Positions 13,643-39,595 of a DNA stretch of 40,691 bases are shown piece by piece; positions within the stretch are counted from its first letter, which is position 1, and the number at the start of each line of letters is the position of its first letter. A program made the translations under genes and the position numbers. Source of the stretch: Smithella sp. (lineage in GTDB: Bacteria > Desulfobacterota > Syntrophia > Syntrophales > Smithellaceae); contig JAAYKU010000147.1 in the NCBI GenBank assembly GCA_012522275.1, forward strand, positions 1 to 40,691. The letters are read 5' to 3'. The notes beneath the pieces were generated by a model. The model was given only the letters and a program-made list of their open reading frames with translations. It was not told the origin of the DNA and made no database searches.

Positions 13643-13675
13643 GGGGAGTCAAAGGCTCCCCTTTTGTTTTTGAAC
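13643..13675 (+). terminator. Intrinsic terminator between frr and uppS
   Basis: GGGGAG (13643-13648) pairs with CTCCCC (13656-13661) and is followed by TTTTGTTTTT. It divides the translation genes from the lipid/envelope genes of the cluster, so part of the transcripts should end here. A separate uppS promoter or readthrough would be needed. Confidence 0.8.
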
Positions 13676-13690
13676 ATACCTGGCAATCTG

Positions 13691-14446
13691 ATGACAAAGA
13701 TCGAACCTGATAATCTTCCGCGGCACATCGCCATCATTATGGACGGAAATGGCCGTTGGGCGAAGCGCCACGCAATGGGGCGGATTAGGGGGCACAAAAA
13801 AGGCGCTCAGGCAGTCAGGGCGACCGTAACTGCGTGTCGGGAGCTCGGCATTGAATATCTGACCTTATACGCTTTTTCCACAGAAAACTGGGGCAGGCCG
13901 GATGACGAAATAAAAGCCCTGATGTCTCTTTTGAGAGAATATCTGGAAAAAGAGGAGAAAGCCCTCCAGAAAAGAGAAATAAAACTGACGACCATCGGCG
14001 ATATCGACAAACTCTACCCTGCCGTGAAAACAAAACTCAAAGAAGTAATGAGGGAAACGCAAAATAATCGGAAAATGGTCCTGAATCTCGCTTTGAGCTA
14101 CGGAAGCCGGGATGAAATAATCGCAGGCATAAAAAAGATGATGGAGGACAACCTTAAAGGAAAACTTGAGATATCCGAAGTAAACGTAGATGTAGTAGAA
14201 CGTTATCTGTTTACACACGACATGCCGGACCCTGATTTGTTAATCAGGACCAGCGGCGAATACCGTATCAGTAATTTTCTTTTGTGGCAGCTTGCCTATA
14301 CGGAGCTTTATTTCACCGACGTTTTGTGGCCTGATTTTAAAAAAGAAGACTTGTTGAAGGCGATTCACGCCTATCAGCAGCGTGAGCGGCGTTTCGGGTT
14401 GACCGGTGAGCAGACGGATAAAAACAAGGTTTCGGTAAAAAAATAA
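13691..14446 (+). CDS. uppS: Isoprenyl transferase (undecaprenyl diphosphate synthase)
   Basis: UppS extends farnesyl diphosphate with isopentenyl units in cis to give undecaprenyl diphosphate, the lipid carrier for peptidoglycan and O-antigen. The 251-residue protein has IIMDGNGRWAKRHAMGR with the catalytic Asp, TLYAFSTENWGRP, and the C-terminal RTSGEYRISNFLLWQLAY signature. The ATG at 13691 is the natural start; a TTG at 13664 lies within the terminator T tract. The ribosome site is weak. It abuts cdsA without a gap. The terminator just upstream means its expression may be partly independent of frr. Confidence 0.96.
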   Translation: MTKIEPDNLPRHIAIIMDGNGRWAKRHAMGRIRGHKKGAQAVRATVTACRELGIEYLTLYAFSTENWGRPDDEIKALMSLLREYLEKEEKALQKREIKLTTIGDIDKLYPAVKTKLKEVMRETQNNRKMVLNLALSYGSRDEIIAGIKKMMEDNLKGKLEISEVNVDVVERYLFTHDMPDPDLLIRTSGEYRISNFLLWQLAYTELYFTDVLWPDFKKEDLLKAIHAYQQRERRFGLTGEQTDKNKVSVKK

Positions 14447-15262
14447 ATGACGCACAAAAATTCCAACCTTCAAAGATGGGCGACAGGACTTGTTTTGGCG
14501 GCTGCCCTGCTGGCTGTCATAATTTTCGGCTCCCTCGAGGTTTTGACTGTCCTGATCGCACTGGTTGTGACCGGCGGCTTGTGGGAGTACAACCGTATCG
14601 TCTTCGGGCCGGGTTTTTTGAAGGAAAAAATCACGGGCCTCATTTTTTCCCTTTTTATTCCCTGTGTCTTTTATCTGGGGGATTTTCAGATGCTGGCAGC
14701 CTGTGTGGCTTTCATGGTGATGGCCGTTTTCATTATATTTCTGTGGCGAGTCAATGAACAGACCCTCGACGTTCTCAGTGTGGCCAAGGTTGTTTTAGGC
14801 GTGGTTTATGTTTCCTTCCTTACTTCACATTTCATTTTACTGCGCAAGCTCGAAGAAGGGATTTACTGGATCATTCTGGTACTGGTGATCGCAATTATCG
14901 GAGATACCGTGGCTTTGTACGTCGGCAAATCACTCGGAAAAAGAAAACTGATTCCTGCGGTGAGCCCCGGCAAGACGGTTGAAGGCACGCTTGGACTGAT
15001 CGCAGGGGCGACCTTCGCCTCTTTAATTTACGGATATTTTTTCCTTCGCTGCATACCTGTTTTTCATTTTGCCATTTTGGGGCTGGTCGGCGGTATTATC
15101 GGTCAGTTGGGCGATCTTTGTGAATCCGCTATAAAGAGGCACTATGGGCGCAAGGATGCCAGTGCGCTGCTGCCGGGGCACGGAGGGCTGCTCGACAGGC
15201 TCGACAGCCTGATTTTTGTGGCGCCTTTCGTTTACTACTACCGTGTTTTCGTGATTGGGTGA
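14447..15262 (+). CDS. cdsA: Phosphatidate cytidylyltransferase
   Basis: CdsA makes CDP-diacylglycerol from phosphatidate and CTP, the branch point for membrane phospholipids. The 271-residue protein is strongly hydrophobic, with about seven or eight transmembrane helices. The C-terminal signature ESAIKRHYGRKDASALLPGH is followed by GGLLDRLDSL, which carries the conserved acidic and basic residues of the family. The ATG at 14447 follows the uppS stop directly, and the stop overlaps the dxr start by one base (TGATG), so the three are probably translationally coupled. Confidence 0.96.
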   Translation: MTHKNSNLQRWATGLVLAAALLAVIIFGSLEVLTVLIALVVTGGLWEYNRIVFGPGFLKEKITGLIFSLFIPCVFYLGDFQMLAACVAFMVMAVFIIFLWRVNEQTLDVLSVAKVVLGVVYVSFLTSHFILLRKLEEGIYWIILVLVIAIIGDTVALYVGKSLGKRKLIPAVSPGKTVEGTLGLIAGATFASLIYGYFFLRCIPVFHFAILGLVGGIIGQLGDLCESAIKRHYGRKDASALLPGHGGLLDRLDSLIFVAPFVYYYRVFVIG

Positions 15263-16425
15263 TGAAAAAGATTACCATCCTGGGGGCAACCGGCTCCATA
15301 GGGATTGGCGCGCTCGATGTTGTCGCTAAAAACCCGAAAAAATTCAAGGTTGTGGCCCTTACCGCGGGCGGCAACATCAAGGAGCTGGCCCGCCAGATTG
15401 CCCTGTTTAAACCATCCGTTGCCGCATGTGCCACGAAGCAGGCGGCCGGGGAGCTCAAGCGCCTGACGGGAAACTCAAGGACAAGGATACTTTACGGTGC
15501 ATCAGGCATCGAGGAAGCAGCTGCCAGCCCGCGTGCCGACATTGTGCTTTCCGCTATTTCCGGGGCTGCCGGTCTGAAGCCGACGCTGGCGGCCATCGAG
15601 GCAGGAAAAACCATCGCTCTGGCCCACAAGGAAACCCTGGTGGCGGCCGGGCAGATCGTGACCAGAAGAGCGAAAAAAAAGAAAGTCATGATTCTGCCGG
15701 TGGACAGTGAGCACAGTGCTATTTTCCAGTGCCTGTCCGGACAGAAAAAAAATCTGCTCAAGAGACTGATTCTGACCGCTTCGGGCGGGCCGTTTTATAA
15801 TCTGACGCAGGCCGGACTAAAAAAAGTGACGGTGGCGCAGGCACTGCGTCACCCGCGCTGGAAAATGGGCAAAAAAATCACGGTGGATTCCGCCTCCCTG
15901 ATGAACAAGGGGCTTGAGGTGATTGAAGCCAGATGGCTTTTTGATGTGGACATTTCACGTATTGATGTTTTAATTCACCCTCAGAGCGTCGTTCATTCAC
16001 TCGTGGAAATGATCGACGGGTCGGTTCTGGCGCAGCTCGGGATTGCCGATATGCGTATTGCCATAGCATACGCGCTGGCCTATCCGCAGCGTATCCAAAA
16101 TGATTTGCCGGCGCTTGACCTCTCCAAGGAGGGGCGGCTGGATTTTTATCCGCCTGATCTGCGCAGATTTCCCTGTCTGGAGCTTGCTTTTGAAGCGGGG
16201 CGAAGGGGAGGGGCGGTTCCGGCTGTGATGAATGCAGCCAACGAAATCGCTGTGGGGGCATTTCTGGAAGAGAAAATTCGTTTCGTGGACCTGCCGGACA
16301 TTATTGCAAGGGTGATGAGCAGATGCCCGGCCGTGAAGAACCCGTCACTGGCGGATGTGCTGGCGGCTGACGGGGAGGCCAGACGGCAGGCAAATCAGGC
16401 CATTGAGCAAATGAAGAGAGGGTGA
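15262..16425 (+). CDS. dxr: 1-deoxy-D-xylulose-5-phosphate reductoisomerase
   Basis: Dxr converts DXP to MEP with NADPH, the committed step of the MEP isoprenoid pathway. This indirectly supplies UppS, encoded two genes upstream. The 387-residue protein has the NADPH loop GATGSIG (8-14), the metal-site segment PVDSEHSAIFQCL, GPFYNLT and the STEM-like helix region, with SASLMNKGLEVIEARWLF. The start is the ATG at 15262, overlapping the cdsA stop. rseP follows after 4 nt. The identification is firm, and fosmidomycin would be the expected inhibitor class. Confidence 0.97.
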   Translation: MKKITILGATGSIGIGALDVVAKNPKKFKVVALTAGGNIKELARQIALFKPSVAACATKQAAGELKRLTGNSRTRILYGASGIEEAAASPRADIVLSAISGAAGLKPTLAAIEAGKTIALAHKETLVAAGQIVTRRAKKKKVMILPVDSEHSAIFQCLSGQKKNLLKRLILTASGGPFYNLTQAGLKKVTVAQALRHPRWKMGKKITVDSASLMNKGLEVIEARWLFDVDISRIDVLIHPQSVVHSLVEMIDGSVLAQLGIADMRIAIAYALAYPQRIQNDLPALDLSKEGRLDFYPPDLRRFPCLELAFEAGRRGGAVPAVMNAANEIAVGAFLEEKIRFVDLPDIIARVMSRCPAVKNPSLADVLAADGEARRQANQAIEQMKRG

Positions 16426-16429
16426 CACA

Positions 16430-18070
16430 TTGGTAACCTTAATATCTTTTGTTGTTTTACTCGGGATACTCATTTTCGTACATGAACTGGGGCATTTTCT
16501 GGTGGCGCGCGCCTGCGGTGTCGGCGTGGAGAAGTTTTCCCTGGGCTTCGGACGTAAAATTATCGGGAAAAAAATAGGAGAAACTGAATATGTCATCTCC
16601 TGGATCCCCCTGGGCGGGTATGTAAAGCTTCTCGGGGAAGCAGGTGCGGAGGAACTTCCCCCCGAAGATGCAAAGCGCTCCTTTTCCGTCCAACCGCCGT
16701 GGAAGCGTCTGCTTATCGTGCTGGCCGGGCCATTTTCCAATTTTTTTCTGGCGCTGGTCATCTTCTGTATTGTGTTTGTTTATGGTCTTCCTAACCTGGC
16801 CCCGATTGTCGGAATGACTTTGCCCGGCTCGGCTGCGGGAGAGGCGGGCATTGTTGCCGGGGACACCATCACCTCCATTGATGGCAAAAAAATATCCTAC
16901 TGGACAGAAATCGACGAGATCTTACAGGCCTCCAAAGGAAAAGATCTGTCGGTGGGTGTCCGGCGCGGCGATGAAGAAAAAACCGTCATGGTAAAACCGC
17001 GCCTTACCGGCGTGAAAGATATCTTCGGCAAGGAAGATTCCGTTTACCGTCTGGGGATTTCTCCTGTGAGCCATACATTGGCGGTGATCGGTGAGATGCC
17101 GGAAGGCTCCGCCGCCAAGGAGGCGGGGATGCTCCGGGGCGATACGATACTTTCCATCGACGGTCGGAAAATAACCTACTGGGATGAGATCAGGCCGGTC
17201 GTGTTCGCTTCTGAAGGCAAAGAACTTGAGGTGATCGCCCGAAGAGGCGCCGTGGAGAAAACCTTTACCGTCAAACCCAAAGCATCCCGTGAAAAGAATG
17301 TGTTAGGCGAAGAGGTCTCCGTTTATCTCATTGGAATCCAGGCGGCGGGAAATACTCATGCCGTCGTCGGGCAGATAAAACCGGATTCGCCGGCCCACAA
17401 AGCTGGTTTCCTGCAGGGTGATAAAATCATTTCAGCCGACGGAAAGAAGGTTTTTTGCTGGGAGGACATGGAGGACATTTTTAAAGATGCTTCCGGCGAC
17501 GGGCTGCAATTCGTCGTGCTGCGCGGCGGGAGGCAAATGACTTTAACTGTAACGGGCGGGCGGAAAGGTCCGGCCGGCATCGGAAAAGAAACGGCCGCCA
17601 TGGGGTTATACCCGGAAAAGGGCGAAGTCATCGAAAGAAAAAATCCCGCGGCTGCTTTTGTTTCCTCATTGGACAGGACATGGGAATTCAGCAAACTGAC
17701 GGTTGTCGTCATTGCAAAGATGATCAAAGGCGCAGTTTCGCCGCGGACGCTCGGAGGCCCGATCTTCATCGCTCAGACAGCGGGCAGGCAGGCCAGGGAG
17801 GGCGTCGTCAGTTTTATCCTTTTTATGGCCATTCTTTCCATCAATCTCGGTGTCATCAACCTCTTTCCCGTGCCTGTTCTGGACGGGGGGCATGTCCTTT
17901 TCTACCTTATTGAAATAGTGACCAGAAGGGCGATTCCACAGAAGGTGAAGGAGTGGTCGACTCAGATTGGTTTCGTTGTTTTACTGATGCTGATGCTGTT
18001 TGTCATCATGATCGACATCGAAAGACTAGATATCAAGTTTATCAATGACGCACTGAAATTTTTCAAATAG
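16430..18070 (+). CDS. rseP: RseP-type site-2 intramembrane zinc protease with three PDZ domains
   Basis: RseP cleaves transmembrane segments of anti-sigma factors and remnant signal peptides at the inner membrane. The catalytic HELGH is at 18-22, the GGYVKLLGE beta-loop at 62-70, and the third zinc ligand region NLFPVPVLDGGH at 477-488. Between them lie three PDZ-like units (about 123-190, 215-283, 310-375). Units 1 and 2 also share linkers of the VKP...VYRLGIS/VYLIGIQ type, pointing to internal duplication. At 546 residues it is longer than the usual single- or double-PDZ forms of about 350-450. The start is a TTG at 16430 after GAGAGGG, with no better alternative. tsaB follows directly. 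The substrate is unknown. Confidence 0.93.
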   Translation: MVTLISFVVLLGILIFVHELGHFLVARACGVGVEKFSLGFGRKIIGKKIGETEYVISWIPLGGYVKLLGEAGAEELPPEDAKRSFSVQPPWKRLLIVLAGPFSNFFLALVIFCIVFVYGLPNLAPIVGMTLPGSAAGEAGIVAGDTITSIDGKKISYWTEIDEILQASKGKDLSVGVRRGDEEKTVMVKPRLTGVKDIFGKEDSVYRLGISPVSHTLAVIGEMPEGSAAKEAGMLRGDTILSIDGRKITYWDEIRPVVFASEGKELEVIARRGAVEKTFTVKPKASREKNVLGEEVSVYLIGIQAAGNTHAVVGQIKPDSPAHKAGFLQGDKIISADGKKVFCWEDMEDIFKDASGDGLQFVVLRGGRQMTLTVTGGRKGPAGIGKETAAMGLYPEKGEVIERKNPAAAFVSSLDRTWEFSKLTVVVIAKMIKGAVSPRTLGGPIFIAQTAGRQAREGVVSFILFMAILSINLGVINLFPVPVLDGGHVLFYLIEIVTRRAIPQKVKEWSTQIGFVVLLMLMLFVIMIDIERLDIKFINDALKFFK

Positions 18071-18071
18071 T

Positions 18072-18773
18072 ATGCTGACACTCGCTTTTGACACATCGGC
18101 CAAAACCGCTTCCGTTGCCGTTCTAGAAGATGACATTGTCGTATATGACGTAATGATCAACGCCGGGAAAAACCATTCAGAGGTTCTCCTGCCCGCAATC
18201 GGGCAGGCCTGCGCCGGCAGCGGTGTTCACATACGGCAGATCGATCTGTTTGCCTGCACGCTGGGGCCCGGCTCCTTTACCGGCTTGCGCATCGGGCTGA
18301 GCACGCTCAAAGGGCTCATGATGGCGACAGGAAAACCCGGTGCGGGAGTTTCGTCCCTGCATGCTCTGGCGTTAAACGCGCGCCATAGCACGGGCACTGT
18401 TGCTGCGATGATGGATGCGGGCCGCGGCCAGGTCTATCTGGCCTATTTCCGTTCAGATGAGGACGGTTTTTTGCATCCGCTCGGCCCGGAGACGGCAACG
18501 GCGCCGCAAAATATTGCTGATTGCCCTTATGAAGAGGTTGTTTATGTAGGCGACGGGGCCGTTAAATATGCCGCGGTGATCAACTCGTCTCCCGGAAGGA
18601 ATCAGCTTGTCTTTGCCGAAAGTCAGTTTATTCGCGCCTGGGCTGTAGGGCTGTTGGCCGTGGAAAAATATCGGAGCCGCGATCTTTTAGATATACAAAA
18701 AACCACACCTGTTTACTTGCGGCCTGCGGATGCAGCGCCGGGTAAGCCTGTTTTTCCGCGTCAGACTGTTTAA
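18072..18773 (+). CDS. tsaB: tRNA threonylcarbamoyladenosine biosynthesis protein TsaB
   Basis: TsaB is the non-catalytic partner of TsaD in forming t6A37 of ANN-decoding tRNAs. The 233-residue protein has the ASKHA-fold start LAFDTSAKTASVAV, the NHSEVLLPAI segment and the family signature GPGSFTGLRIGLSTLKGL. The ATG at 18072 is one base past the rseP stop, so it ends the long + strand cluster. Its last four bases overlap the end of the convergent TPR gene. TsaD, TsaC and TsaE are not in the window. Confidence 0.95.
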   Translation: MLTLAFDTSAKTASVAVLEDDIVVYDVMINAGKNHSEVLLPAIGQACAGSGVHIRQIDLFACTLGPGSFTGLRIGLSTLKGLMMATGKPGAGVSSLHALALNARHSTGTVAAMMDAGRGQVYLAYFRSDEDGFLHPLGPETATAPQNIADCPYEEVVYVGDGAVKYAAVINSSPGRNQLVFAESQFIRAWAVGLLAVEKYRSRDLLDIQKTTPVYLRPADAAPGKPVFPRQTV

Positions 18774-19690
18774 GAAGATGTCCGGCTTTTTCTTTCTTCC
18801 TGGATCTTGTCCAGGAGCTTTTCCGCTTTGGGGTGGAAAGGGTTCAATGAAATGACAAAATTCAGTCTGCGGATGATTTCATCTAGTTTGGCGTTTTCCG
18901 GCGAGACGCGGAAAAGAGCGTACTGCAAAGCGGCCAGATTGAAATTTGTCTCTTCGTGGAAGGGATTGATTAAAAGTGATTTCCGGTAAAAGTCCAGCGC
19001 TTCCGGATATTCCTTGCTGAATTCTCGAATCAGGCCCAGGCTGTTGCAGACTGAGGCGTTTTCCGGATCCAGTTTGAGAACTTTTTTGAACAATGCCTCG
19101 GCCGCCGCATAATTTCCCCATTGAAAATTAATTCTGCCCATGTTGTAGAGGGATTTGATGTGACCGGGATTCTTTCTGGTGATCTCCTCGTACTGCTGTA
19201 TCGCCTCATCAAACATATCGTGTGTGTCATATAAAACAGCCAGGCAGAAGCGGGGTGTTTCATTGTCCGGGTCCATGTCCACGGCTTTTTTATACTGTTT
19301 GACCGCGTCGTGATAATTTCCCTGCAGCTCGTAAAGATGACCGATGTTGATGACGGCCTCCAGGTTGCCGGTATCCACGGACAGGGCCTTTTCATAATAC
19401 TGCCTGGCCATGTCCGGCCTGTCCATTTTTTCATAGACATAGCCTGTGTTGTTAAAGGCCCCGGCGGTGTGCGGCGCGATTTCAAGTATCTTGAGAAAGC
19501 ATTTCAATGCCTCTTCGAAATCTTCTTTTTCCAGGTAAATGAAGCCCATATTGGTGTAGGCATCGGTCACATTTTCGTTTTTGGTAATGAGGTTTTTGTA
19601 GTGGGAAATGACAAGTTCATAATCTTCAGCATGACGTTCCTTATTTTTTCCAGGACGTTTTTTTTGTGCGGCTTTATCCGTTTTTATCAT
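18770..19690 (-). CDS. Tetratricopeptide repeat protein
   Basis: The 306-residue protein is made almost wholly of TPR units from about residue 27 to 290. Examples are VTDAYTNMGFIYLEKEDFEEALKC, AGAFNNTGYVYEKMDRPDMA and ASVCNSLGLIREFSKEYPEA (helical pairs with the W/L-G-Y-A-F pattern). It has a basic N terminus (KTDKAAQKKRPGKNKERH) and no signal peptide, so it is probably a cytoplasmic or membrane-associated scaffold. The ATG at 19690 follows AGAAGGG. It lies 24 nt after the ExeA-like ATPase gene and is probably its cotranscribed partner. TPR proteins act as adaptors; the specific function is unknown. Confidence 0.85.
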   Translation of the reverse strand: MIKTDKAAQKKRPGKNKERHAEDYELVISHYKNLITKNENVTDAYTNMGFIYLEKEDFEEALKCFLKILEIAPHTAGAFNNTGYVYEKMDRPDMARQYYEKALSVDTGNLEAVINIGHLYELQGNYHDAVKQYKKAVDMDPDNETPRFCLAVLYDTHDMFDEAIQQYEEITRKNPGHIKSLYNMGRINFQWGNYAAAEALFKKVLKLDPENASVCNSLGLIREFSKEYPEALDFYRKSLLINPFHEETNFNLAALQYALFRVSPENAKLDEIIRRLNFVISLNPFHPKAEKLLDKIQEERKSRTSS

Positions 19691-19714: not shown

Positions 19715-21235
19715 TTACATCGACAGCCTTTTGAGTATGGAGTCTTTTATTTCATTCCAGATATAGACCGGGTCCGACTGCGGCGAAGCGGTGAGCTGCG
19801 GGTTGTTTTTCAGAAGCTTTGCGGCCCAGAAGCCGGCCGACTTCAGTGCGCTTTCCCGGTTGAAGGATTTTACCCGCTGCAGTATCTCTTGGGGAATGTC
19901 CAGGCGTATCGTATGCCCGCCGATGGTGATTTCATCAATTTTTCCCTCGTCGTCTGATGCCGGTTTTTCATCGTCAGGCGGAAGCTCTTCTTTGGATGTT
20001 TGTGTTTCAGCTCCCGCTTCAGTTTCAATAATTATACTTTCCGCTTCTGCGTCACCTTCGTGCCGGGCTAGGGATTCAGGATTCAATTTCGGCGCGGCGA
20101 CTGTTTCAGCATCGTCAACGACTGCAGGCAGAGAATCCCGTGCGTCAGTCCCCTGTGTCAGCAAAGGGGCGGGGGGAGGCTCAAAACCGACAGGAGTTTC
20201 AGTTTCAGTTTCCTGTGCGGCAAACGGCGTCTGTCCGGCATCTCTCGACTCCGTTGCATCAAGCGGGGGGTTCTCCTCAACCGGTTTTTTTTCATTATCG
20301 GCGGTTGACTGAGCGGAGATCATCTCGATGACCTCTTCGGTCATTTCAACAACATCTGAGATCTCAAAATCATCGGGAGCGCAGCGTGGTTTGCGTCTTT
20401 GAATGGCCGCCTCGCCCAGTTTCTTAAATCTTTGGGCCGCCTGCGAGACCAGTTCGGCAGATACCTGTGTTAAACCGCCGCCGGCGGCTTCTATCATACA
20501 CAATTTGCATATCCTGTTGACAAGACGCGGCACCCCCTCGTCCGAATTTTCCCAGATGGCCCGGATACTTTCAGTCGGGAAAATCATTTTTTGTGTGCCG
20601 GCCAGATGCAGCCTCGTTTCGACATATTTTTTTACCGCTTCCGGCGACGGGAGTTTATCGATACGGCCGTAAATGCCGATGCGCTGAAACAGATTCTCCC
20701 TTTTGGGATGTTCGAGGCGACGCGCCAGTTGTGTCTGGCCGGCCAGCACCAGAGTGAAAAGATTTCTCTGATCATCCTGCATGCTGGTCAGAAGGCGCAA
20801 ATTGTCCAGATTGGCAGGTGACAGTGAATCAGCCTCATCGATGAAAATAACGATTTTCCGCCCTTTTTCCATTGTCTTGAACAGGAGACGATGAAAGGTC
20901 TGCAGCAGATGGACTTTTCTGTTCTCCGCGCACGGTTCACCGGTAATCTGGCTGATGATTTCCTTAAGCAGCCGGGCAAAAGGTATGGAAGGGCTTGTGA
21001 TCAGGACAGGCTTGTATTTATCTGTCTCAAGGGAGTCCATAATCACCTTGAGCGCGAGCGTCTTGCCGGATCCGACCGCGCCGATGATGACGACAAAGTC
21101 CTCATCGGCCTGTTTGATTCCGAAAACCGTTTCCGCAATCACCTTTTCCATGGATTCGTGGCAATCCGCGTACATGGAAGGATCCGGCACATTGTCAAAC
21201 GGCGCTTTTTGTAAATTCCAGTAGTCTAAATACAT
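19715..21235 (-). CDS. ExeA/GspA-like AAA ATPase with unusual C-terminal part
   Basis: The N-terminal 280 residues match the ExeA/GspA group of AAA ATPases. These include the start YLDYWNLQKAPFDNVPDP, Walker A GAVGSGKT (52-59), Walker B IVIFIDEAD (128-136) and sensor-like LVLAGQTQLARRL. ExeA proteins place type II secretion secretins through peptidoglycan. Here the protein (506 residues) has a long Glu/Pro/Thr-rich linker (about 300-430) and a C-terminal segment (about 435-506) with no peptidoglycan-binding motif I recognise. No transmembrane helix is obvious. It leads an operon with a TPR gene, and no gsp genes are near. Related ATPases occur in exopolysaccharide and pilus systems, so the system it serves is open. 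Confidence 0.82.
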   Translation of the reverse strand: MYLDYWNLQKAPFDNVPDPSMYADCHESMEKVIAETVFGIKQADEDFVVIIGAVGSGKTLALKVIMDSLETDKYKPVLITSPSIPFARLLKEIISQITGEPCAENRKVHLLQTFHRLLFKTMEKGRKIVIFIDEADSLSPANLDNLRLLTSMQDDQRNLFTLVLAGQTQLARRLEHPKRENLFQRIGIYGRIDKLPSPEAVKKYVETRLHLAGTQKMIFPTESIRAIWENSDEGVPRLVNRICKLCMIEAAGGGLTQVSAELVSQAAQRFKKLGEAAIQRRKPRCAPDDFEISDVVEMTEEVIEMISAQSTADNEKKPVEENPPLDATESRDAGQTPFAAQETETETPVGFEPPPAPLLTQGTDARDSLPAVVDDAETVAAPKLNPESLARHEGDAEAESIIIETEAGAETQTSKEELPPDDEKPASDDEGKIDEITIGGHTIRLDIPQEILQRVKSFNRESALKSAGFWAAKLLKNNPQLTASPQSDPVYIWNEIKDSILKRLSM

Positions 21236-37982: not shown

Positions 37983-39449
37983 TCATAATCTAATTTTTCT
38001 GACATAAGCACGGACAAATTGTGTATTTTCGTGAAAGGGATATTTTTTGAGCAGCCCTTCGATAATTTTTACCGCGCGATCCGCTTTGTCCAGGTGTTCA
38101 TTGAAAATCCTGGCCATCATGAAAAATGCGTCCGGCGTCATCGGGTGGTCGCGGTACAACTCGATAAATTTGTCATAAATTTTCAACGCAGCTATCGGAT
38201 GGCCTCCCTCCAGGAGGGTTTTTCCCGCGGAAAGCAATAAAGCCGGGTCATTGTCGAGCGCGACCGGGTTGATCTTTTCCGCCTTCAGGCAGGCGGCAAC
38301 GAGCCTGTCCTTGCGGCCTGCCCGGTCCATTATTTTGATGTAATGAGGGAGAAAATCCGCCTGGTCCGCGTTGCTCTCCGTTAAGTCAAGAATGTCATAG
38401 TACTGACCGGCAAGCACCGGATCGGTAACCGGCCCTCCGGAGGCTTTGCGGATCTCCATGAGCGCCTCCTGGTAAGCGCCGTTTTCGATCAGGGAGGGAA
38501 TTGCACTTGGCTCACCTCCGGCCATATCCTGAGCAGGCTCCTTTGACGATGACACACTGTTTTGATGGAACACGCTTTCAAAATCGACCTTGTAGCCGGC
38601 TTTTTCCTGGTACTGGAAAAGAAAGTAGCCCAGCAGGTGATACGAGGTGATCAGATAATAGCAGGCAAAAAGAGCGGCAATCAAGTGGCCTGCGGCCAAA
38701 GGCAGCGTGTCCCATATGACGCGGATAAAAGCAGAGGGAATAAGAAGGAAAATGAAAAGAAAGAAACACATTGCCGGATAAGGCCATCCGATGCGCCAGG
38801 CCAGGCGGGAAATTATGTTCGGCAAAAGGGACGCAAAAAAGCTTCCTGTGACCATAAGCATGATGATGATTGCCGGCATTATTAAAAAAAGGACAGCGGC
38901 GCAGATAATTACGGTAAGGGATGTCGGCTGCAGGCCGAAGTATTCGAGAATGACGGGCAGTAATTTGTAGAAAAAAGCGCCGACTGCCAGAAAAAGAACG
39001 ATCTGCTGCAAAGCGAAGTTCGTGATCTTTTGCACAGATTGTCTGTTGATGACAGGCTGCGTGAGTCTGCCGTTGGCCGTGGCGCTCATCACCAGGCTTG
39101 CATAGGCCAAAAGGACGGCAAAACTCAAAAAATGAACCAGCAGGTCCGGCAGCGCCCCGTCCGTGAAGAAAGACTGGACAAGCGCCAGCACGACCGCCAG
39201 TAAGGCGGGCTGAATCTGCAGCGGATAGGCTAAAAAAGAAGGCAGGCGCATCCAGAAAGGCTCAAAGGCCGTCATCAGCGGGAGCTTTTCCAGAAAGATA
39301 TTGCACTCGGAGCAAAGATAGACGTCTCTGGTGTGTCCGAAATATTCATGCTTCCTTACCGCAATGCATGACGGGCATAAATTGGCATGACACTTCGGGC
39401 AGGTGAATACGGCATTGAGACGGGGATGGTTGCTGCAATATACGGGCAT
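37983..39449 (-). CDS. Zinc-finger, multi-helix membrane and TPR-like protein of unknown function
   Basis: The 488-residue protein has three parts. Residues 1-50 form a B-box-like zinc-binding region with C5, H8, C17, C20, C25, C28, H34/H39, C46 and C49. Residues about 75-280 contain five or six hydrophobic helices resembling the YIP1/DUF4013 type of membrane domain. Residues about 315-488 form TPR-like helical repeats (ENGAYQEALMEI, GHPIAALKIYDKFIELY, DKADRAVKIIEGLLKKYP). The ATG at 39449 begins MPVYCSNHP; a longer frame from 39590 adds 47 residues without domain features and would collide with the divergent gene. It is probably an inner-membrane scaffold. Function is unknown. Confidence 0.8.
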   Translation of the reverse strand: MPVYCSNHPRLNAVFTCPKCHANLCPSCIAVRKHEYFGHTRDVYLCSECNIFLEKLPLMTAFEPFWMRLPSFLAYPLQIQPALLAVVLALVQSFFTDGALPDLLVHFLSFAVLLAYASLVMSATANGRLTQPVINRQSVQKITNFALQQIVLFLAVGAFFYKLLPVILEYFGLQPTSLTVIICAAVLFLIMPAIIIMLMVTGSFFASLLPNIISRLAWRIGWPYPAMCFFLFIFLLIPSAFIRVIWDTLPLAAGHLIAALFACYYLITSYHLLGYFLFQYQEKAGYKVDFESVFHQNSVSSSKEPAQDMAGGEPSAIPSLIENGAYQEALMEIRKASGGPVTDPVLAGQYYDILDLTESNADQADFLPHYIKIMDRAGRKDRLVAACLKAEKINPVALDNDPALLLSAGKTLLEGGHPIAALKIYDKFIELYRDHPMTPDAFFMMARIFNEHLDKADRAVKIIEGLLKKYPFHENTQFVRAYVRKIRL

Positions 39450-39595
39450 GATTTCATGTCCTGCCGGGATATTTTCTTTCGTTGCAATATCAGTGATAAT
39501 GGCCGTCCAATACCACTTAAGCCGGAAATATTCCACAATAAATACGCAAATATCGCTTGAGTTTTTTTTGTCTTGCCGATAATGAAACATGAAGA

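Follow-up and report, generated by a model that had tools for sequence, protein, structure and literature searches.

The rseP-like gene of the Smithella sp. genome analysed here encodes a predicted Group I site-2 protease with three tandem PDZ domains, and with a probability of roughly 0.75 we regard it as an ordinary, vertically inherited RseP in which head-to-tail duplication of a 93-residue unit expanded a single periplasmic PDZ domain to three before this species and its sister species, represented by the genome G010, diverged. The analysis was made on a stretch of 40,691 nucleotides (the window) of contig JAAYKU010000147.1, which belongs to a 2.53-Mb draft genome of 315 contigs (G000). 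The gene is located at 16430..18070 on the + strand, starts with TTG and encodes a product of 546 residues; the full reading frame considered in the genome comparisons was 551 aa. The product showed 410.2 bits against TIGR00054 (RIP metalloprotease RseP), for which the curated cut-off is 147.55, and 235 bits against Peptidase_M50 (PF02163), confirming the assignment as an RseP homologue made in an earlier note on this DNA. In contrast, the score of 360.1 bits against PRK10779 (sigma-E protease regulator RseP, E. coli type) was below the equivalog cut-off of 477.

Both catalytic motifs were intact in Smithella sp. RseP, the HELGH zinc-binding motif in the first helix (residues 18-22; 16481..16495, +) and the LDG motif (residues 484-486; 17879..17887, +). 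The residues H18, E19, H22, D485 and G486 were invariant in alignment A1, consisting of 62 sequences altogether with 61 of the 80 genome_contigs loci taken in. The structure predicted by AlphaFold2 (mean pLDDT 89.5, pTM 0.83) contained a beta-hairpin of strands E33-49 and E52-67 at residues 33-67 (16526..16630, +), probably corresponding to the membrane-reentrant loop, a name taken from PMC7728848. The long helix H406-433 after the PDZ array (17645..17728, +) appears to stand at the place of PCT-H1, described in that paper as an amphiphilic H1 helix in the region after the PDZ domains. PMC7728848 and PMC10202637 ascribe one or more PDZ domains to Group I site-2 proteases, and the definition in the former places them between TM helices 2 and 3. 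The PDZ domains of Smithella sp. RseP (residues 127-375 by HMM) follow the model helix 90-118 and precede the helices 444-457 and 459-477, and these regions would be the TM2 and TM3 flanks of the array. A second, short M50 peptidase was also observed in the same genome (G000:C10:292-789, 218-aa frame).

Structural comparison of the model agreed with a predicted site-2 protease fold. The top matches included the RasP model 9a6w (Z 32.4), and E. coli RseP (7w6x) was aligned over 431 residues with Z 31.8 and rmsd 8.0 (Foldseek E 1.3e-37). The RseP entries of Aquifex aeolicus gave Z 30.2-31.0, with Z 30.2 and rmsd 6.5 for 9j82, and the identity to this protein over the structural alignment was 37%; the value for M. 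jannaschii S2P (3b4r) was Z 10.5. Smithella sp. RseP has in common with the E. coli protein the fold, the core with HExxH and LDG, and the placement of the PDZ domains ahead of the final helices of the core, and with the A. aeolicus protein (9j82, 3wkm) the fold. Both of these proteins have two PDZ domains, one fewer than the three of Smithella sp.

The segment 16781-17563, corresponding to residues 118-378, had been described in the earlier note as three successive PDZ-like repeats. Indeed, the three motifs quoted there were found in the translation, and domain prediction as well as the AlphaFold2 model gave three PDZ folds rather than only two. Pfam detected three stretches for each of PDZ_2 (PF13180), PDZ_6 (PF17820) and PDZ (PF00595), and an HMM built without the sequences of the window and G010 detected three domains with 84.7, 88.0 and 69.0 bits. 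When the PDZ segment was shuffled 1000 times, a separate PDZ profile of this study gave 44 weak matches with a maximum of 5.7 bits. Unit 1 (residues 120-212; 16787..17065, +) and unit 2 (residues 213-305; 17066..17344, +) were supported by Pfam, HMM, unit alignment and model, and unit 3 (residues 306-398; 17345..17623, +), which was divergent and borders the post-array region, by Pfam, HMM, unit alignment, model and fold match. The S-[AP]-A motifs beginning at residues 134, 227 and 320 defined an exact period of 93 residues, close to the length of about 95 noted previously for a duplicated unit; the duplication itself held for units 1 and 2 at least. The model contained three groups of strands and helices resembling PDZ domains, the least certain being unit 3, with blocks of pLDDT 74-89 and 51 at residues 381-390. 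The PDZ tandem of A. aeolicus (3wkm) fitted units 1-2 with Z 19.0 and rmsd 2.5 over 170 residues, and PDZ1 of E. coli RseP fitted residues 308-397 in unit 3 with Z 14.9 and rmsd 1.6.

Units 1 and 2 were identical at 45 of 93 positions when the tails were counted in, and unit 3 shared 26 and 27 of 93 positions with units 1 and 2, respectively. As the DNA identity between the units in the window was 41-54% and the repeat search in the DNA found only repeats of 15-18 nt among them, the duplication is old. The sister species G010 carried the same three units in a protein with 73% identity to that of the window. An assembly artefact was rejected, as the three units were present in this second assembly and their DNA in the window was only 41-54% identical.

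The window and 17 of the 19 family regions examined, including that of G010, had the gene order uppS-cdsA-dxr-rseP-tsaB, and the two remaining regions (G003 and G001) were cut by contig ends. The neighbours are the ORFs at 13664..14446, 14447..15262, 15259..16425 and 18072..18773, all on the + strand and each in the same relative place in relatives, which we take from their sequences to be putative uppS-, cdsA-, dxr- and tsaB-like genes. The one-PDZ members of the genus had the same operon as the window. Farther along the window on the - strand, we observed an ATPase at 19715-21235 with similarity to the model of the XrtA/PEP-CTERM-associated ATPase (150 bits, short of its cut-off of 324.5), an adjoining TPR-repeat protein at 18770-19690, and a 535-aa ORF at 37983-39590 that gave no NCBIfam match at E 1e-10.

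In the tree built from the protease core after removal of the PDZ region, the window and G010 were sisters with an SH-aLRT of 99, and the pair was located inside a genus clade of 25 rows (99), in which the other rows had one PDZ except for the contig-cut G003. This tree was constructed without L001, L004, L015, L042, L061 and L087, and included L023 by its N-terminal part only. The tree of the four neighbouring genes, rooted by midpoint, also joined the window and G010 (100/100) and placed them next to 13 further members of the genus (92/90); one more genus member, G006, fell outside and had a long branch. The agreement of the two trees on the pair and on its place beside the genus gave no support to a horizontal replacement of the entire gene. 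Between the window and G010, the identity of the same units was 61, 62 and 48 of 93 positions, higher than the 22-44 of 93 between different units, indicating that the three units predate the split of the two species. With the same operon in relatives and the core nested among one-PDZ orthologues, one PDZ domain would have become three in place, and we consider the three-PDZ architecture together with this expansion in place to be very probable. The earlier note had assumed one extra unit; since the nearest relatives have one PDZ, two units were added. The one-PDZ proteins of MAGs of Smithella and Smithellaceae, such as L037 and L038, were 72% identical to the window protein (alignment A1), and their frames were 368 and 371 aa, compared with 551 aa for the three-PDZ frame in the window.

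The PDZ domains of E. coli RseP have been proposed to act as a size filter in PMC7728848 and PMC10202637. By analogy, Smithella sp. RseP would act on transmembrane segments once another protease has made a first cut, and its PDZ array would roof the active site and hold back bulky periplasmic domains, in the way suggested for the E. coli protein. The two further units would enlarge or reposition this roof, and could add peptide-binding grooves. We consider the chances of a size-filter role for the array to be about even, and a size filter changed through the extra units appears plausible. Clearance of signal-peptide remnants, named as an RseP function in PMC7728848, may be an alternative role here.

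RseA_N (PF03872) was matched in none of the 13 family genomes, in a weak test with a match in only one of the 14 control genomes. Likewise, a search for zf-HC2 anti-sigma factors gave no match in G000 or G010; this test was also weak, with matches in 3 of 13 family genomes and 5 of 14 controls. Four sigma-70-type matches were found in G000. PDZ domains generally bind C-terminal peptides. This property is in favour of extra units that serve the binding of ligands or partners, and thus sensing, instead of size exclusion, as is the result of the two weak tests, in which no RseA-like substrate needing a filter was detected; we consider such a role possible, if somewhat unlikely.

The divergence of the units between the window and G010 was compared with that in 23 pairs of one-PDZ proteins of equal core divergence, for which the mean PDZ identity was 0.605 (sd 0.060, minimum 0.521). 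Units 1 and 2, with identities of 0.656 and 0.670, diverged at the pace of single PDZs, and the identity of 0.516 for unit 3 was just under the minimum of the 23 pairs. All three units appear to be maintained. The extra PDZ domains could be neutral ballast with no functional effect, in line with the fast divergence that the PDZ domains of the family show anyway, but the retention of three units in two species with 85% identical cores, the identities of units 1 and 2 like those of single PDZs, with that of unit 3 only slightly lower, and the prediction of three PDZ folds make this account unlikely.

The three units differed in their relation to the single PDZ of the genus. With the profile of the one-PDZ proteins of the family, units 1 and 2 reached 112-118 bits; with three other profiles they reached 67-97 bits, lower by more than 15 bits in each case, and these scores indicate that both derive from the single PDZ of the genus. 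Unit 3 could not be traced to this PDZ in the same way: it scored 55-62 bits on all four PDZ profiles without preference and stood on a long branch in the PDZ-unit trees, which were constructed from 73 of 141 units, with 45 of those 73 used for the AU tests. A mosaic, with units 1 and 2 as copies of the genus PDZ and unit 3 acquired by recombination from the RseP of another lineage, could account for both the missing preference and the long branch. However, unit 3 conforms to the period of 93 residues and retains the junction with the region that follows, and besides its own orthologue its best match among the 16 matches listed was a one-PDZ RseP of the genus (L006, 57 bits). The AU tests did not reject a grouping of unit 3 with the genus (p 0.221) or of all six units together (p 0.385), so that a single origin was neither rejected nor shown. 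The other PDZ proteins of G000 and G010 were absent among the 16 matches listed for unit 3, which also speaks against the mosaic, and for the same reason the derivation of unit 3 from a different PDZ protein in the same genome was not favoured. We consider a mosaic quite unlikely, and unit 3 may likewise be a copy of the genus PDZ.

The PDZ domains were counted by HMM in 120 rows, in which the window gene was present three times (P0001, L001 and L004) and several species were doubled through two collections. The closest genome_contigs matches were mostly MAGs titled Smithella, Smithellaceae, Syntrophaceae or Deltaproteobacteria, and one was titled Bacillota. Among the 20 genomes of the genus, including that of the window, 18 gave a match: 15 had one PDZ (14 by HMM and G001 by alignment coordinates), two had three PDZs, namely the window and G010, both with 551-aa frames, and one (G003) was cut by a contig end. 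The neighbouring genes of G003 grouped it with the one-PDZ species, and no RseP match was obtained for G002 and G017 in this search of 20 genomes. At the family level, matches were obtained for 46 of 51 genomes and no RseP match for the other five; two proteins had three PDZs, 42 had one-PDZ lengths or alignments, and two (G003 and G071) were cut. The counts and lengths show the three-PDZ state in one sublineage of the family among the genomes examined.

In the order outside the family, 23 of 24 genomes were matched, with frames of 357-428 aa except for G043, whose 693-aa frame had one PDZ. The phylum sample comprised 148 genomes, 140 of which matched the N-terminal part of RseP, and three PDZs were present in only three of the 140 (the window, G157 and G085, the last two belonging to another family), in accordance with the expectation of the earlier note that this architecture is not the norm in the phylum. 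Frames shorter than 500 aa were taken to have fewer than three PDZs, with 13 of them counted, and some matches cut by contig ends were not judgeable for PDZ number (e.g., G075 and G188). All seven frames of at least 500 aa were counted; three had three PDZs, G101 had two, and G126, G137 and G171 had one PDZ and were extended. That three PDZs were ancestral in the RseP of Syntrophales, with two lost in most relatives, is very improbable even with an operon tree rooted by midpoint, as the one-PDZ lengths in the order and the rarity of three PDZs in the phylum demand many parallel losses.

Three PDZs between the core halves, as in the window, were also found in L034, L191-L194, L140, L146, L065, L082, L195 and L196. 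In the phylum that includes L034, which is titled as an 'Oligoflexia' MAG and has the gene at L034:5989-7647, all five genomes examined had a three-PDZ RseP with frames of 546-572 aa, L191-L194 being the further members, and three PDZs may thus be the rule in this small group. In the phylum of L065, titled WOR-3, 75 of 80 genomes were matched, with 70 frames of 415-464 aa and five of at least 503 aa. Four of the latter had three PDZs, including G364, which is the locus L065, and G450 with weak units, and one had two. The matched frames of five of the 75 (G432, G401, G430, G405 and G400) contained one stop (TAG, TAA or TGA), for which sequencing error, a broken gene and an end-of-frame effect are all possible. 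The three-PDZ RsePs at L140:2946-4634 and L146 correspond to G157 and G085, respectively, which belong to one genus of the family f32 in the phylum of the window; their middle unit was weak, with about 34 bits compared with 63-68 bits for the outer units.

In a core tree of 126 rows, 16 of them with three PDZs, the three-PDZ label needed at least four changes, which may be gains or losses, and three of them were forced by well-supported branches, many of the deep branches being weak. The tree was constructed without 24 rows, which were repeats, cut rows, and L086, L090 and L197, for which the PDZ count was unsure. The three-PDZ RsePs of other lineages differed from that of the window in their places in the core tree and in the spacing of the units, and probably represent independent arrivals.

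In a literature search with most subscription journals outside its scope, no paper was found that dealt with three PDZ domains in an RseP or a site-2 protease, with domain duplication in RseP, or with RseP in Smithella. The supplementary list of 111 homologues belonging to PMC7728848 may include three-PDZ proteins. Variable PDZ number is already known for the group, and members with three PDZs recur in public genomes. The expansion in Smithella sp. is a modest one in an otherwise ordinary housekeeping enzyme. It is conceivable, though doubtful, that a one-PDZ gate was turned into a three-PDZ gate, with PDZ number in RseP acting as a dial turned repeatedly. The fast-diverging unit 3, next to the adaptor helix, would then have taken over the contact with the core, and units 1 and 2 would constitute an additional outer gate that has a ligand specificity of its own; the substrates chosen would thereby differ from those of the one-PDZ sister species. 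The presence of one-PDZ and three-PDZ orthologues in one genus and in one operon offers a natural comparison for asking if the size filter of RseP is set by the number of its PDZ domains.
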